In this document: piece by piece, positions 7,177-14,564 of the stretch
How positions within the stretch are numbered: position 1 is the first letter of the stretch
Layout of the letters: every line of letters begins with the position of its first letter
Assembly (NCBI GenBank): GCA_016125165.1
Contig: WGMH01000001.1
Coordinates: 620,001 to 684,000 of the forward strand
Length of the DNA stretch: 64,000 bases
Origin: Alphaproteobacteria bacterium
Lineage (GTDB): Bacteria > Pseudomonadota > Alphaproteobacteria > Micropepsales > Micropepsaceae
Direction: 5' to 3'
Translations under genes and position numbers: made by a program
The notes under the pieces: model-generated
The model's database searches: none
What the model saw: the letters and a program-made list of their open reading frames with translations, nothing else
What the model was told of the DNA's origin: nothing

Positions 7177-8034
7177 ATGAGCACCCAGCGTTTCGAAGGC
7201 ACGGACAAGTATGTCGCAACCGACGACCTGCGCGTCGCGGTTAACGCGGCCATCGCATTGGAGCGCCCGCTCCTGATCAAGGGCGAGCCCGGCACCGGCA
7301 AGACCGAACTGGCCTTCCAGGTCGCCGATGCGCTGAAGGCGCCGCTCATCACCTGGCATGTGAAGTCCACCACCAAGGCGCAACAGGGCCTTTACGAATA
7401 CGACGCGGTGACCCGCCTGCGCGATTCCCAGCTCGGCGACGAGCGCGTGAAGGACGTGAAGAACTACATCAAGCAGGGCAAGCTGTGGGAAGCCTTCGAC
7501 AGCGCCGAGCGCCCCGTGCTGCTGATCGACGAGATCGACAAGGCCGACATCGAATTCCCGAACGACCTTCTGCTCGAACTCGATCGCATGGAATTCTTCG
7601 TTTACGAGACCGGCGAGACGATCCGCGCCAAGCAGCGCCCGATGATCCTCATCACCTCCAACAACGAAAAGGAACTGCCCGACGCATTCCTGCGCCGCTG
7701 CTTCTTCCACTACATCAAATTCCCCGAGCGCGAGGCGATGCAGAAGATCGTCGATGTGCATTACCCGGACATCAAGCAGAAGCTCGTCAGCGAGGCGCTG
7801 AACGTCTTCTATCAGATCCGCGACGTTCCGGGCCTGAAGAAGAAGCCCTCCACCTCCGAACTGCTCGACTGGCTGAAGCTGCTTCTGAACGAGGATGTGC
7901 CGCCGGAAGCGCTGAAGGAGCGCGATCCGACAAAGCTGATCCCGCCGCTGCATGGTGCGCTGCTGAAGAACGAGCAGGACGTACACCTGTTCGAAAGGCT
8001 CGCTTTCCTCGCCCGCCGCGAAAGCCGGAACTAG
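7177..8034 (+). CDS. MoxR-type AAA+ ATPase
   Basis: This 285-residue AAA+ protein has Walker A GEPGTGKT at residues 36-43, Walker B LLIDE at 115-119 and the sensor region ILITSNNEKELPDAFLRRC. MoxR ATPases are chaperones that insert cofactors or mature enzyme complexes and nearly always work with a von Willebrand A partner. That partner is the next gene, 21 bases downstream on the same strand. The ATG is preceded by AGAGAAAG. The target enzyme is not indicated; the divergent Rieske oxygenase is a neighbour, but that alone is weak evidence. Confidence 0.92.
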   Translation: MSTQRFEGTDKYVATDDLRVAVNAAIALERPLLIKGEPGTGKTELAFQVADALKAPLITWHVKSTTKAQQGLYEYDAVTRLRDSQLGDERVKDVKNYIKQGKLWEAFDSAERPVLLIDEIDKADIEFPNDLLLELDRMEFFVYETGETIRAKQRPMILITSNNEKELPDAFLRRCFFHYIKFPEREAMQKIVDVHYPDIKQKLVSEALNVFYQIRDVPGLKKKPSTSELLDWLKLLLNEDVPPEALKERDPTKLIPPLHGALLKNEQDVHLFERLAFLARRESRN

Positions 8035-8055
8035 AAATCACTTCGGAGAACGCCC

Positions 8056-9231
8056 ATGTTCTTCCAATTCTTCGATGAGCTTCGCAGCGCCCGGGTTCCG
8101 GTGACGTTGAAGGAATATCTGGCGCTGATGGATGCGCTGGACAAGAACGTCATCGACATGAAGGTGGAGGAATTCTACTTCCTCTCGCGCACCGCGCTGG
8201 TGAAAGACGAGCGCAACCTCGACAAGTTCGACCGCGTGTTCGGCCATGTGTTCAAGGGACTCGAAAACATTGATCCCAATGCCGTGGCCGAATTACCCGA
8301 AGAATGGCTGCGCGCGCTTTCCGAAAAATTCCTGACCGAAGAAGAAAAGAAAGAAATCGAAGCGCTCGGCGGTTGGGAAAAGCTGATGGAGACGCTGAAG
8401 GAGCGCCTCGAAGAGCAGAAGAAGCGCCATGAAGGCGGATCGAAGATGATCGGCTCGGGCGGCACCTCGCCCTTCGGCAATTCCGGCTACAACCCCGAAG
8501 GCGTGCGCATCGGACAGGACAAGGGCCGCCACGGCAAGGCCGTGAAGGTGTGGGACAAGCGCGAATACAAGAACCTCGACGATTCCGTCGAACTGGGCAC
8601 GCGCAACATCAAGGTGGCGCTGCGCCGCCTGCGCAAATGGGCGCGGCAGGGCGCGGAGACCGAACTCGACCTGCCCGACACCATCAAGAGCACCGCGAAC
8701 AAGGGTTATCTCGACCTCAAGCTCGTGCCTGAACGCCACAACACGGTGAAGGTTTTGATCTTCTTCGATATTGGCGGCTCCATGGACGCCTATATCAAGC
8801 TCTGCGAGGAGTTGTTCAGCGCAGCGAAGACCGAGTTCAAGCACATGGAATTCTTCTACTTCCACAACTGCCTCTATGAGAGCGTGTGGAAGGACAATCG
8901 CCGCCGCCACAACGAGAAATCCAACACCTGGGACGTGCTGCACAAATTCCCGCACGACTACAAGGTGATCTTCGTGGGCGATGCCACCATGAGCCCCTAC
9001 GAGATCACCTATCCCGGCGGCAGCGTGGAGCACTGGAACGAGGAAGCCGGCGCCATCTGGCTGGATCGCGTGGCGCAGATCTATCCGCATCTGGTCTGGC
9101 TCAATCCGGTGGCGCAGAAGCACTGGGACTACACGCCATCCATCGGCCTCATCAATCAGATCACCGGCAACCGCATGTTCCCGCTCACGCTGGGCGGCCT
9201 CGATCAGGCGATGCGGGAGTTGAACAGGTAG
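8056..9231 (+). CDS. vWA domain protein, CoxE-like partner of MoxR ATPase
   Basis: The 391-residue protein matches the COG3825-type proteins that follow MoxR genes. The N-terminal half is helical and charged, with a glycine-rich segment near 127-150 (SKMIGSGGTSPFGNSGY). The C-terminal half is a vWA fold beginning VKVLIFFDIGGSMD at about 231. Its MIDAS motif reads DxGxS (residues 238-242) instead of the classical DxSxS, which this subgroup tolerates. GDATMSPYEI near 315 is the metal-site loop. There is no signal peptide or membrane segment, so it should act in the cytosol with the MoxR ATPase. Confidence 0.88.
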   Translation: MFFQFFDELRSARVPVTLKEYLALMDALDKNVIDMKVEEFYFLSRTALVKDERNLDKFDRVFGHVFKGLENIDPNAVAELPEEWLRALSEKFLTEEEKKEIEALGGWEKLMETLKERLEEQKKRHEGGSKMIGSGGTSPFGNSGYNPEGVRIGQDKGRHGKAVKVWDKREYKNLDDSVELGTRNIKVALRRLRKWARQGAETELDLPDTIKSTANKGYLDLKLVPERHNTVKVLIFFDIGGSMDAYIKLCEELFSAAKTEFKHMEFFYFHNCLYESVWKDNRRRHNEKSNTWDVLHKFPHDYKVIFVGDATMSPYEITYPGGSVEHWNEEAGAIWLDRVAQIYPHLVWLNPVAQKHWDYTPSIGLINQITGNRMFPLTLGGLDQAMRELNR

Positions 9232-9293: not shown

Positions 9294-10340
9294 TCAATGC
9301 GCGTTGGCGCCTGTGAAATAGTATTTTCGCTCTTTCGTCGCCACGTAGATATGGAGCTTGCGCATGACGTCGATACCGAGCTCCACATCGCCGGCAATCG
9401 ACATCGCAACTCCGGTTTCTTTGGCAATATCCGCCGCGCCTTCTGGACTAATCAGCTGATCTTTCAATTCCCGAGCCTTCAATCCTGTCGGATACCAAAC
9501 ATCCAGCATCAATCCCTTAAGGTTCACGCCGCCGAATTCGACGCTTTCGGCGCGAAACTGTCCGACCAGTTTTCCGCCCGGCGTCATTCCGGATGTTTCA
9601 TCATACCTATTCTTCAACCCGAGTGCCGCCAGTTCGCGAAACATCAATTCGTGAACTCTCGAACGCTTGATTGCCGTATTGAAATCAAATGCAGTCCTAA
9701 TTCCATCAATTGCGCCAATGAACCCACCCTTCAATACGTCGTGATCCTCGGACACAGGTGTCGTGCCCAGCCATTTGATCTGCGCAGTCGTTGCCATGGG
9801 AATGTCTGAATATTCCTTGGCCCAATATACGACTTTTCCGGGACAATGATCTTGCGAATAGAGATTGAGAACGCCTGCCGCAAAGTCGAAATCCAGATCG
9901 AAATTCAAAAGAACGTCGCTTCCCAGTGTGCCGTCCGCCTCGTAGCTCCGCTTCACGGAATCAGGCTCCACGGGCATGTGCAAACTCGAGATATCGACCC
10001 GCCCACCCGCGCTCCCGAGCGACAGGGAGGTGATCTCGGCTATATGCTCCACACGCTGACTCTGTATAAGAAGATGCGGGCGTCGGGGCGCAAAATCTTC
10101 GTGAAGTCCGAGAGACTTTGCCGCTTTTTCCGTGATGCTCCCGTCCCCAAATGCGCCCAACACAAATTTTAGCGCGGTGCCGTTCACAGTGACGGGCACG
10201 AGTATTGTGCCGTCGGACGTCTCCGTCATGGGAAGTGACGCCAGCTTTTGAAGCGAGCAACCCGAGCTGTCCGCCAAGGCTGCGCTGTCCGGAAGGAAGC
10301 ATGCAAACGCGATCGCCAGTGCCAGCGTAAACGGCTTCAT
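9294..10340 (-). CDS. secreted retropepsin-like protein with both catalytic motifs lost
   Basis: A signal peptide covers about the first 24 residues (LALAIAFACFLP...ALA). The mature part aligns with the active paralogue at 13425: both share an early Cys, the block FDLDFDFAAGVLNLYSQDHC (DHCPGKVVYW here, DHCAGSVVYW there) and a C-terminal LHIYVATKE/LHLYIAYKE stretch. Where retropepsins carry D-T-G, this copy has G-A-F near residue 62 and D-F-N near residue 219, so peptidase activity is unlikely. It may be a binding or inhibitory relative. An in-frame TTG at 10346 is an alternative start better spaced from GAGGAG. Confidence 0.7.
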   Translation of the reverse strand: MKPFTLALAIAFACFLPDSAALADSSGCSLQKLASLPMTETSDGTILVPVTVNGTALKFVLGAFGDGSITEKAAKSLGLHEDFAPRRPHLLIQSQRVEHIAEITSLSLGSAGGRVDISSLHMPVEPDSVKRSYEADGTLGSDVLLNFDLDFDFAAGVLNLYSQDHCPGKVVYWAKEYSDIPMATTAQIKWLGTTPVSEDHDVLKGGFIGAIDGIRTAFDFNTAIKRSRVHELMFRELAALGLKNRYDETSGMTPGGKLVGQFRAESVEFGGVNLKGLMLDVWYPTGLKARELKDQLISPEGAADIAKETGVAMSIAGDVELGIDVMRKLHIYVATKERKYYFTGANAH

Positions 10341-10468
10341 TTTCAATCTCTCTCCTCAATACCTACCACATTCGGCAATAGCCAACATTCCGCAATGCAT
10401 AGCATAGCCCCCTTGCGTCCGCACGCGCCCCCTGTTCCGATAGCGGAGCACACCGGGAGGGTCACGCA

Positions 10469-11092
10469 ATGATCAAAGTCCACCATCTCAACAATTCGCG
10501 CTCGCAGCGCATTCTGTGGCTACTGGAAGAACTCGGCGTGCCATACGAAATCGTCAAGTATCAGCGCGGCACGCCCGTGCCACTGGCACCGCCGGAGCTG
10601 AAAGCCGTGCATCCGCTCGGCAAATCCCCGGTGATCGAAGACGGCGCAAGGAAGATCGCCGAAAGCGGCGCCATCGTGGAATATCTTATCGATACCCATG
10701 GCGATGGCCGCTTCAAACCGACGCCCGGCACGGATGAATATTGGAAGTACATCGAGTGGATGCACTTTGCCGAAGGCTCGGCGATGCTTCCGCTGCTGAT
10801 GGCGCTTTACACCGGCATGTTGGGCGATGCGGCCGCCGCGTTGAAACCGCGCGTCGACAGCGAGATCGCCAATCATCTTTCCTACATGAACGATGCGCTC
10901 GGCTCGAACGGCTATTTCGTCGGCAACCGGCTGACGGGCGCGGACTTCATGCTCATCTTCGTGTGCGAGGCGGCGGGCGAGCGGCTGGCACCTTACGCCA
11001 ATCTCGTGCGCTATCGCGACGCCATCCATGCGCGCCCTGCCTATAAGACCGCGCTCGAAAAGGGCGGACCCTATCAATTGATGAGTCGCTGA
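10469..11092 (+). CDS. glutathione S-transferase family protein
   Basis: The 207-residue protein has an N-terminal thioredoxin fold (NNSRSQRILWLLEELGVPYEI), the cis-proline/glutathione-binding KSPVIED followed by ESGAIVEYL, and a helical C-terminal domain with the N-capping-box region NRLTGADFMLIF. It is a cytosolic GST that conjugates or reduces with glutathione; the substrate is unknown. Tyr or Ser catalytic residue assignment is unclear, with Ser9 or Ser12 as candidates. The M24 peptidase follows directly, one base after the stop, so the two are likely cotranscribed. Confidence 0.92.
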   Translation: MIKVHHLNNSRSQRILWLLEELGVPYEIVKYQRGTPVPLAPPELKAVHPLGKSPVIEDGARKIAESGAIVEYLIDTHGDGRFKPTPGTDEYWKYIEWMHFAEGSAMLPLLMALYTGMLGDAAAALKPRVDSEIANHLSYMNDALGSNGYFVGNRLTGADFMLIFVCEAAGERLAPYANLVRYRDAIHARPAYKTALEKGGPYQLMSR

Positions 11093-11093
11093 G

Positions 11094-12239
11094 ATGATCG
11101 GCATGGCTCCAGCCAGGATAAGCAGCGAAGAACGCAAGGCGCGTGTCAGCGCATTGTGCAATGGCATGTCTGAGGAAGGGCTGGACGCGGTGCTACTCGG
11201 GTCCACCACGTCGCTGCTCTATTTCACCGGCGTCAGCTGGCACGCTTCCGAGCGTTTCACCGGCGCACTCGTGAAGGCGAACGGCGCCGTTGAATATATC
11301 TGCCCCGGGTTTGAACGCGACAAGGTTGGCCAGCTCACCGCAGTGGATGGCGACATCTTCACTTGGGAAGAAGAGGAAAGCCCCTATGCGCTGATCGCGG
11401 ACCGCGCCGGTGCCAATGCTCGCATAGGGTTGGATGATCAGATCGCGCTCTTCACCTATAGAGGGCTGCTGCATCACTTCACGGAGAAGAGACTTGCCGA
11501 TGGCGGGCCCGCGATCAACCGGTTGCGCCGTTGCAAATCTGCAGCCGAGCTGGCGCTGATGCAGCACGCCAAGAACATCACGCTCGAGGTGCAGAAACGC
11601 GCGTGGAAGAGCCTTCAACCCGGTGTGTGCGCCTCGGAGGTCATGCGCTTTATCGATGAACAGCATCGCGCCCTTGGTGGCAGCGGCAATACATTTTGCA
11701 TCGTGTCGTTCGGAGAGGATACAGCTCTTCCCCATGGCGGCGAAGGCGACCGGGCGCTGGCCGAAGGCGATGTGGTGCTGATCGACACCGGCACCAGCAT
11801 CGAAGGCTACAATTCCGACATTACGCGCTCATACGTGTTCGGCGAGCCGACACAGGACGTTCGCACAATCTGGAACCTGGAAAAGGAAGCACAGGCCGCA
11901 GCGTTCGAAGCTGCAAAACCCGGCGCATCTTGCGAGAACGTGGATGCTGCAGCGCGCGCGGTGCTCGTGAAGGCCGGGCTTGGGCCGGACTACCGACTGC
12001 CCGGCCTTCCCCACCGCACAGGTCACGGCATTGGACTTGACGTACATGAGACACCCAACCTCGTACGCGGTGACCGCACAGCGCTTTCACCCGGCATGTG
12101 CTTTTCCAATGAGCCGATGATCGTGGTTCCCGGACGCTTCGGCATCCGCCTCGAAGATCACTTCTACATGGCGCAATCGGGTCCGCGCTGGTTTACCCAA
12201 CCTTCCGCGAGCGTAGATGATCCGTTTGCGGGCGTGTGA
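11094..12239 (+). CDS. M24 family metallopeptidase (Xaa-Pro aminopeptidase/creatinase fold)
   Basis: The 381-residue protein has the creatinase N-terminal domain (residues 10-140) and the pita-bread catalytic domain. The five metal ligands are all visible: Asp in LIDTGTSIEG, Asp in YNSDITRSY, His in HRTGHGIGLDVHE, Glu in FSNEPMIV and Glu in GIRLEDHF. It should be a cytosolic di-metal aminopeptidase or prolidase-like enzyme acting on Xaa-Pro bonds; a related hydrolase such as a creatinase cannot be excluded. ATGs at 11094 and 11103 are both possible starts. It lies directly behind the GST gene. Confidence 0.9.
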   Translation: MIGMAPARISSEERKARVSALCNGMSEEGLDAVLLGSTTSLLYFTGVSWHASERFTGALVKANGAVEYICPGFERDKVGQLTAVDGDIFTWEEEESPYALIADRAGANARIGLDDQIALFTYRGLLHHFTEKRLADGGPAINRLRRCKSAAELALMQHAKNITLEVQKRAWKSLQPGVCASEVMRFIDEQHRALGGSGNTFCIVSFGEDTALPHGGEGDRALAEGDVVLIDTGTSIEGYNSDITRSYVFGEPTQDVRTIWNLEKEAQAAAFEAAKPGASCENVDAAARAVLVKAGLGPDYRLPGLPHRTGHGIGLDVHETPNLVRGDRTALSPGMCFSNEPMIVVPGRFGIRLEDHFYMAQSGPRWFTQPSASVDDPFAGV

Positions 12240-12300
12240 TCGCGGCAACAATTGCGCACAGTTCCATTCCGGCGATAATGGCTCTCATTCGGGGGCGTAG

Positions 12301-13428
12301 ATGTATTTCCGGTTGCTATTTGGATTGATTATTCTGCTGCTGCCGTTGCCGGTTCGGGCTTCCGGCTACAGCGATTTCAATCTGGCCATAACCGCCTTCA
12401 ATCACGGCGACCTTTTGGAAGCGGAGAAACGCGCCACAGCGGCGCTGGGGGCCTCCGATTTTCCGCAAACCCTTCGTGCTCCCGCGTACCAGCTGCGGGG
12501 AGATACATATTTCCTGCGCAACCGCGATGCCGATGCTCTCGCCGACTATAATTTGAGTTTGCAGCTTGCGCCGGATCTTGAGGGGTCAAGACTGCGTCGC
12601 GGGGCGCTGCATGTGGTTCGCGCAGACTATGCCGCCGCGCTGGACGATTTCGACGCTCTGATCGTGGCACGCCCACACTACCCGCTGGGATATGCAGGCC
12701 GTGGCGGCGTGTTCGAAGCACAGAAGCGCTTTGATCTTGCCATCGCCGAGTATGGGCGCATGCTGAAGATGTCCGGCAAAACCGCGCAAGGCTATCTGTT
12801 GCGAGGCTATTCATACCGCTCAATCGGCAAATTGAACGATGCGCTCAGCGATTTCGATGACGCCGTCGATCTCGAGCCGAGCCGTGCCCGTGGCTACCTT
12901 CTGCGCGGCCTTGTCTATCAGGACAAACTGGATTTCGAGCGTGCGCTAAAGGAGTTCCAAACTGCCGCAAGCCATGACCCCGTGGATTTCAATTCCCGGT
13001 TCGAGGTGGGCATTACCTTGTGGCAGTTGTCGCGCTTCGAAGAAGCGGAACAGGCGCTTGCAGCTCTGCTCAGAAAAAAGCCCGACAATGAGCCCACGCG
13101 ATTGTGGTTGCATCTGGCACGTCTCAGGTCTGACCAGAACGCCGTGATCGACGCGACTGGCGTTGACGCGAAGAAGTGGCCCGGCGCCCTGTTTGGCCTG
13201 TTTCAGGGCAAGGCCACCATTCAGGAGGCGCGTGCTGCAGCAGCGCTTACGCCCGAAGGTGAACGCGAAATGCATATTTGCGAGGCCGTGTTTTATGGAG
13301 CTGAAATGACGCTCACCAAAAGCCCCTCGGAAAACGTCATTCCACTACTCGAAGACGCTGCAAAGAATTGTCCGCTCGATTCCATCGAACGCAATTCGGC
13401 GCGTGCGGAGCTGGAGAGATTGAGATGA
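12301..13428 (+). CDS. secreted TPR-repeat protein
   Basis: The 375-residue product begins with a clear signal peptide (LLFGLIILLLPLPVRASG), followed by about six tetratricopeptide repeats between residues 25 and 250, for example ADALADYNLSLQLAPDLEGSRLR and NDALSDFDDAVDLEPSRARGYLL. The C-terminal 120 residues are less regular and contain two Cys that could pair. It is probably a periplasmic scaffold. Its stop overlaps the start of the retropepsin-like gene (ATGA), which suggests that the two proteins act together. Confidence 0.85.
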   Translation: MYFRLLFGLIILLLPLPVRASGYSDFNLAITAFNHGDLLEAEKRATAALGASDFPQTLRAPAYQLRGDTYFLRNRDADALADYNLSLQLAPDLEGSRLRRGALHVVRADYAAALDDFDALIVARPHYPLGYAGRGGVFEAQKRFDLAIAEYGRMLKMSGKTAQGYLLRGYSYRSIGKLNDALSDFDDAVDLEPSRARGYLLRGLVYQDKLDFERALKEFQTAASHDPVDFNSRFEVGITLWQLSRFEEAEQALAALLRKKPDNEPTRLWLHLARLRSDQNAVIDATGVDAKKWPGALFGLFQGKATIQEARAAAALTPEGEREMHICEAVFYGAEMTLTKSPSENVIPLLEDAAKNCPLDSIERNSARAELERLR

Positions 13429-14564
13429 CGCGCAGCTTTCTGCCAGCCATCTGTGCGCTATGCGTTGCGCTTGCCTCCTTCGCGGCCGTCGCGGACGAGG
13501 AGAGTCCCGCTGGAGGCTATCGACCCAGGACGGACACAATGCGGGCGCCGCTGGATTCCGCCGAGCACGGGTCTTCGCGGTCGAAGTCAAATTCCGCGGC
13601 GGGGGTCGTTACGCCCATGATGACCGCACACCCTATTCCCCAGTTTGGGACACAAGTCGTAACAATCGCAAAGCCGTCAATAGAGAAAGCGCCTGCTGCC
13701 ACGCGGGAGAATTGCGCTCTGCAAACGGTGGCGTCGGTCGACTTACGAACGCTTTCCAGCGGCCTCGTGACTGTGCCGGTGACTATACAGGACCGCGAGG
13801 CGCATCTGGTGGTGGACACGGGGAGCGTTTATTCCGTCGTTACCCAGGACATTGTGGATGACATCAGAGCGTCCACCCGCTCGGCGCGCAGCATTCTGGC
13901 AGGTAACATGGAGTTGATGGGCGGCGTGATCATGGATCGTGTGGTGGAGCCGCGTGATTTTCGCATCGGGGCACTGATTGGCAAGCGCCCGCCTCTCTAT
14001 GTGATGCCAAGCACGGCAATGGGAGAAGACATTCAAGGCCTGCTTGGTCCCGATATCATGGACAAATACGACATCGAGATCGATTTCGCGTTTGGCAAGT
14101 TCAACATGATCTCGCCGGACCATTGCGCGGGTTCGGTCGTTTATTGGACCCATGAACCCTATGCCGAAGCGCCCATTGGGCGCGACGACAACAGGCACAT
14201 CACGATTCCCGTTGTTCTGGATGGCACCAAAATGTCAGCGGTGATTGATACTGGCGCAGAGGGTTCGGCGATGCCGCTATCCGTTGCGCAGCGGCTGCTC
14301 GGTATCGACGTGAAAAGTCCGGGCTTGCAGGAAGTGGCGCCGATCAGCGTCAATGGCGCGCAACATGTGCGTGCCTATCGCTATCCGTTCCAGACACTCA
14401 ATCTGGAAGGCATAACGGTGAAGAATCCCGATATTGTTCTGATGCCGGACAGCGGACAGGGCGTGCCCGATCTGCTTCTTGGCGTGGGCATCCTGCGCCA
14501 GCTCCACCTTTATATCGCGTACAAGGAAGGAAAGATTTACGCGACCAGAGCCGAGGCGCGCTAA
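13425..14564 (+). CDS. secreted tandem retropepsin-like aspartic protease
   Basis: The 379-residue protein has a signal peptide (residues 1-23), a low-complexity Ser/Pro-rich linker (24-95) and two retropepsin-like halves. Each half has an intact catalytic D-T-G: residues 131-133 (HLVVDTGSVYS) and 275-277 (SAVIDTGAEGS). Each half also has the later hydrophobic-G strand (LLGPDIMDKY, LLLGVGILRQ). Two domains in one chain could form the active dimer intramolecularly, as in pepsins. The start overlaps the upstream TPR gene by ATGA. An inactive-looking paralogue lies at 9294-10340. The substrate is unknown. Confidence 0.85.
   Translation: MTRSFLPAICALCVALASFAAVADEESPAGGYRPRTDTMRAPLDSAEHGSSRSKSNSAAGVVTPMMTAHPIPQFGTQVVTIAKPSIEKAPAATRENCALQTVASVDLRTLSSGLVTVPVTIQDREAHLVVDTGSVYSVVTQDIVDDIRASTRSARSILAGNMELMGGVIMDRVVEPRDFRIGALIGKRPPLYVMPSTAMGEDIQGLLGPDIMDKYDIEIDFAFGKFNMISPDHCAGSVVYWTHEPYAEAPIGRDDNRHITIPVVLDGTKMSAVIDTGAEGSAMPLSVAQRLLGIDVKSPGLQEVAPISVNGAQHVRAYRYPFQTLNLEGITVKNPDIVLMPDSGQGVPDLLLGVGILRQLHLYIAYKEGKIYATRAEAR

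Follow-up and report, generated by a model that had tools for sequence, protein, structure and literature searches.

The window, by which we mean the whole stretch of 64,000 nucleotides that was analysed, corresponds to bases 620001-684000 of contig 2 in the 3.04 Mb assembly of the alphaproteobacterial host and contains two related genes, one encoding a putative aspartic protease and the other a relative that has lost the catalytic residues. The gene of the latter, P0005, lies on the reverse strand at 9294..10340 (ATG at 10340, stop at 9294) and encodes a predicted exported two-lobed pepsin-fold pseudoprotease of 348 aa, with GGAGAG preceding its ATG and a signal peptide predicted at its N-terminus. 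It stands alone, convergent with a CoxE gene and divergent from a glutathione S-transferase (GST) gene. The CoxE-like protein, of the VWA type, forms a pair with a MoxR-type AAA ATPase at 7177-9231 of the window. On the forward strand the GST-like gene (10469..11092) is followed by an M24 (Xaa-Pro peptidase-like) gene (11094..12239) and, after 61 nt, by a gene for a predicted exported TPR protein of 375 aa (12301..13428). The stop codon of the TPR gene overlaps the start codon of the protease gene in a four-nucleotide ATGA (13425..13428, forward strand), an arrangement typical of translational coupling, and GGAGAG is found upstream of the protease ATG as well. This second family member, P0004 (13425..14564, forward strand), is a predicted exported single-chain, two-lobed aspartic protease of 379 aa in which a signal peptide is followed by a linker and then by two PF13650 lobes. 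We infer that P0004, P0005 and the TPR protein are all exported.

Clan AA peptidases carry a D-T/S-G motif in both halves of the active enzyme, and this dyad is present in P0004 as D131-T132-G133 (13815..13823) and D275-T276-G277 (14247..14255), both on the forward strand, in keeping with the initial annotation, which had read two D-T-G motifs in one chain. It is absent from P0005, which has G62 and N221 at the two places. The first DTG is replaced by G62-A63-F64 (10149..10157, reverse strand), as had been proposed, and the second by N221-T222-A223 (9672..9680, reverse strand), the D-F-N previously taken for the second site being located two residues early (9678-9686). The catalytic sites were mapped both by alignment of 105 sequences and by strand position in AF2 models. 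In the model of P0004 a strand ends immediately before D131 and before D275 (model positions 43 and 187), and the same holds for G62 and N221 in that of P0005 (model positions 39 and 198); in the alignment the second site of P0005 reads N221-T-A while its sister sequence, L072, has NAF/NTE at the catalytic sites. Strand position and the residues of L072 together put Asp219 of P0005 within the strand itself, two residues ahead of the catalytic position. Both catalytic Asp residues are gone from P0005; neither alignment nor models place another Asp at the site or indicate that the folds of the two proteins differ. The markers of the fold are all retained in P0005, as had been noted from the sequence: the paired Cys (C28, C166), the DHCPGKVVYW block, and the C-terminal LHIY...Y strand. 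In the secreted Pseudomonas retropepsin RloA, a DTG aspartic peptidase with a disulfide between its two Cys, the D48A and D48N variants are catalytically inactive controls (PMC12239564), and P0005 would, by the same token, be unable to cut in this way.

Both lobes of P0004 match the clan AA models PF13650 (Asp_protease_2) and PF13975 (gag-asp_proteas) above cut-off, with PF13650 found in two stretches at 78.2 bits against a cut-off of 24.3; these models describe a single lobe, unlike the two-lobed P0004 and P0005. At 20.3 bits P0005 falls below the curated PF13650 cut-off, and its kinship rests instead on its paralogues, the closest of which in its own genome are a tandem trio on contig 8 (E=1e-21) and P0004 (2e-12). 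Among 16 aligned members, 15 match PF13650. AF2 models, built on 16 sequences, are two-lobed single chains for both proteins, with a pLDDT of 87.8 for P0004 and 79.7 for P0005, the latter including low-confidence loops at residues 167-180 and 264-292. For both proteins the closest solved structure, matched across the two lobes, is 9IY9, a putative exported endopeptidase from Bacteroides fragilis, which matches P0004 with Z 23.1 (257 aligned, 2.9 A) and P0005 with Z 20.3 (255 aligned, 3.0 A), although its chain is longer (420 aa) and identity is only 13-14%. This structure was also found by a sequence profile (E 1.4e-11); single-protein phmmer searches against PDB sequences gave chance matches only, 9IY9 being reached by the profile alone. 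Pepsin-type enzymes match the whole chain of both models.

The A2 retropepsins have one lobe per chain and form their dyad in a homodimer, and APRc/ApRick of Rickettsia is a membrane-bound protein with a single lobe per chain. Both chains studied here consist of two tandem lobes, unlike MEROPS A2 members, and P0004 shows the A1 architecture of two lobes per chain with one Asp in each, as judged from its model and the full-chain structural matches; the pepsin family model PF00026 was not among the Pfam matches with E up to 0.1. P0004 and P0005 are retropepsin-like by sequence and pepsin-like by predicted architecture. As a bacterial retropepsin-like peptidase, APRc (PMC4140852; PDB 5c9b) is a weak profile match (E 0.01). 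RloA resembles P0004 in being an exported bacterial DTG aspartic peptidase, but is a homodimer of single lobes; its operon holds an inactive transglutaminase and an ATP-grasp protein, with a TPR protein unmentioned in that paper (PMC12239564). The RloA/RimB group of bacterial retropepsins is characterised by homodimers of single lobes, unlike the two lobes per chain of P0004 and P0005, and a RimB-type model was absent from the Pfam and NCBIfam scan results. Natural pepsin folds that have kept the fold and lost catalysis match P0005 with Z 17.5 (Bla g 2), 17.1 (TAXI-I), and 17.1 (basic 7S globulin), though these are eukaryotic and their loss is of unrelated origin. Literature searches covering aspartic pseudoproteases, PerP, and bacterial enzymes of the pepsin type turned up no description of the present family.

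Five members of the family are encoded in the host genome: P0004, P0005, and the tandem trio on contig 8 (490310-493380; 8311-11381 of locus L009), which sits between UbiD and PmbA and in which the first gene is dead (SPN/EPS) and the other two are DTG/DTG. Of 37 genomes in the genus, most contain the family, a single genome giving as many as 10 matches, and members also occur in a small number of further alphaproteobacterial families; the genomes being mostly MAGs, these copy counts are lower bounds. The 105 homologues that were aligned came from 73 loci and a further nine MAG loci, all within the genus or its near relatives. Both Asp residues are kept in about 70 of the approximately 105 homologues (DTG/DTG in 65), and one or both are lost in about 30. 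On a tree built without the catalytic columns, at least ten changes separate the state in which both Asp are kept from that in which one or both are lost, ruling out a single event as the origin of catalytic loss. P0005 and L072 are sisters (support 100/96), P0005 occupying a long branch with 33% identity to its nearest relative. Eight further dead copies, including the SPN/EPS copy of the same genome, make up an all-dead clade (98/88), and constraining P0005 and L072 to join these eight improves the tree by 1.79 log units over that of the free search, so that one old pseudoprotease clade of ten rows is likely, but not proved. Separate losses are seen in L083/L084/L111/L112, in L062/L086/L120, and in L077, and single Asp residues have been lost in L060, L073, L081, L124, and copies of G049.

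The middle copies of L086 and L062 have Asn in place of Asp in both lobes (NTA/NTG), the same substitution that experimenters introduce to abolish aspartic protease activity. Genome G049, which belongs to another alphaproteobacterial family, carries tandem arrays (L136 and L137) that mix intact DTG/DTG copies with degenerate ones reading GTG/DSA, ATA/DSS, STS/DSG, and HTS/DSG.

In the ten-row dead clade the catalytic columns alone decay, while the Cys, Gly, Asp, and Trp markers of the fold stay, with C97, G205, D216, D220, C234, W241, G267, and G353 kept at 80-100%; such selective loss is more than would be expected by chance. Across the family both Cys co-occur in 100 of 103 sequences, as fits a presumed disulfide. 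Ratios of dN/dS (NG86) range from 0.12 to 0.31 in dead pairs and in most active pairs, one active pair standing at 0.53, with dS near saturation in several of these comparisons. For P0005 and L072 the ratio is 0.42 (bootstrap range 0.21-0.61), an estimate that, given the strong divergence of P0005, rests on one saturated pair. By these measures dead copies are under purifying selection like active ones and are not decaying. Repeated loss together with preservation of the dead copies suggests that they are of use to the cell, for instance by binding proteins that they do not cut.

In about 25 loci one to three copies of the family sit between UbiD and PmbA (TldE-like), and this conserved slot holds intact copies in some genomes and dead copies with quite different residues in others. 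Asp-lacking copies account for 15 of 34 sequences at the UbiD-PmbA slot versus 14 of 66 elsewhere (p 0.02, uncorrected for kinship).

The proposal that the TPR protein is coupled to the active copy is borne out by the ATGA overlap, by the recurrence of the pair at about 20 loci of the genus, and by a natural fusion. In the tree, 20 copies have a TPR gene next to them, in most cases immediately upstream, with the two genes overlapping or almost so; a weak 130-residue TPR match beside the partial copy L064 was left out of this count. The fusion, in genome G008 (L079, 4895-6487, forward strand), lies in the UbiD-PmbA slot and joins TPR repeats to the C-terminus of a protease, and the adjoining genes together with the fusion indicate that the coupling of TPR protein and protease is real. 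All 20 TPR-linked copies are DTG/DTG compared with 44 of the 80 others (p 5e-5, uncorrected), and no TPR-linked copy is found among the dead copies with both sites readable. Tree-independent contrasts, of which there are too few, show a trend in the same direction that is not significant. A conserved TPR-aspartic protease gene pair is thereby defined, for which no described function was found in the literature.

The initial annotation had placed P0005, the TPR protein, and P0004 together as an active protease and its pseudoenzyme relative around a TPR partner. The kinship of intact and dead paralogues stands, with a predicted fold in common and both Asp lost from one of them, whereas the grouping of the three genes into one system is not supported. 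The GST-M24-TPR-protease block is found again in two genomes, G012 and G034, with the M24 gene once more near the TPR-protease pair, and lacks a homologue of the 9294 gene in both. The CoxE and GST genes lie near one another in at least a dozen relatives, separated by a stretch of variable content in which an acetyltransferase-like frame is common; in seven relatives no member of the family was found there, with no match better than E 0.018. The sole orthologue of P0005, L072 in G003, lies on a different contig from the P0004 orthologue of that genome. The layout of an active/dead pair around a TPR gene, sought among relatives, is thus not conserved, and P0005 and P0004 as a conserved pair are ruled out by the empty CoxE-GST gaps and the G012 and G034 blocks; that the layout constitutes a system is unlikely. 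Moreover, a dead copy is the only family member in G005, G022, and G030 (97-100% complete), genomes that do carry other PF13650 proteins, so that a dead copy can do without an active paralogue of the family to regulate. In this species P0005 may still regulate P0004 directly, but such regulation is not general in the family.

On balance, we favour, at somewhat better than even odds, the view that P0005 is an independent, non-cleaving binding protein of the periplasm and P0004 an active endopeptidase with a TPR partner. Both belong to a single clan AA subfamily, predicted to be exported, whose chains each combine two retropepsin-like lobes, as in pepsin. To judge from its residues and fold, P0004 would cut by the two-Asp mechanism, each lobe supplying one Asp of the dyad, and the co-translated TPR partner would probably hold or deliver its substrate or anchor it in the envelope. 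P0005, having lost both Asp, cannot cleave by the aspartic mechanism but keeps the two lobes, the presumed disulfide, and the scaffold of the cleft. Its most likely activity is to bind a periplasmic ligand, either a peptide or a protein, through the cleft or the surface of a lobe, acting alone rather than as a partner dedicated to P0004.

Other roles for P0005 have to be set against this view. Direct regulation of P0004, whether by inhibiting it, by joining it in a hetero-oligomer, or by competing as a decoy for its substrate, would fit two proteins of the same predicted fold and compartment whose genes are 3 kb apart, and dead and intact copies do stand side by side in the trio on contig 8 and in the arrays L062, L077, and L086; we nonetheless consider it rather unlikely, as the neighbourhood of the two genes is not conserved, three genomes have a dead family copy only, and TPR linkage is confined to copies other than the readable dead ones. 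Some eukaryotic dead pepsin folds bind and inhibit glycosidases, and the dead copies might similarly use the pepsin fold as a scaffold for inhibiting other enzymes, as does the plant xylanase inhibitor TAXI-I. The structural resemblance between P0005 and both TAXI-I and basic 7S globulin and the purifying selection on dead copies are compatible with such a role, which is still quite improbable given that many active pepsins match P0005 equally well, all tied near Z 17, and that no consistently adjacent gene for a target enzyme was found.

A decaying pseudogene would account for the long branch of P0005, its low identity to the nearest relative (33%), and a GC3 of 0.61, a little under that of its neighbours. 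It is very unlikely, however, in view of an open frame of 348 codons with a start site and signal peptide, the retained fold markers, the P0005/L072 ratio of 0.42 (0.21-0.61), and the clear constraint on other dead copies (0.12-0.31). Lastly, P0005 might still be an enzyme that employs another catalytic group, much as the histo-aspartic protease of Plasmodium uses His, and the site is indeed taken by Asn, Ser, Glu, or His in various of the dead copies. The replacements within the dead clade are nevertheless without pattern (GAF/NTA, SPN/EPS, EFG/ATD, SMD/IFS, GLN/HVS), unlike a conserved new site, and we give this almost no credence.

Beyond P0005 itself, we tentatively extend the favoured view of a non-cleaving binding protein, with slightly less than even confidence, to a genus-wide pool of pepsin-like exported binding proteins, in which catalysis is kept where a TPR protein is coupled and has been lost repeatedly elsewhere, often in the slot UbiD-[1 to 3 copies]-PmbA, with fold and constraint persisting. 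If this were true, the dead copies would act as periplasmic receptors for peptides or proteins. Most work on pseudoenzymes has dealt with isolated examples from animals and plants. The genus studied here has lost one and the same active site of a secreted bacterial protease many times in parallel; several of these losses fall at a single orthologous locus, where related species carry intact as well as dead versions. This makes it a natural replicate for the question of what purpose a protease fold serves once cutting stops.

Two further arrangements were observed in related proteins. On contig 8 of the host genome (about 635.7-638.8 kb; L010, 5707-8823, reverse strand) two adjacent genes encode two-lobed aspartic-protease proteins of a different branch of the PF13650 superfamily, each with, by eye, a PDZ-like C-terminal end. 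In G013 an 843-aa frame (L094, 2294-4822, reverse strand) combines a BlaR1-type M56 peptidase with a variant of the family fold (DIG/DTS) as its C-terminal part, two separate relatives being located elsewhere in the same genome (L092, L093), and this fusion gives a hint that the family fold can serve as a sensing domain.
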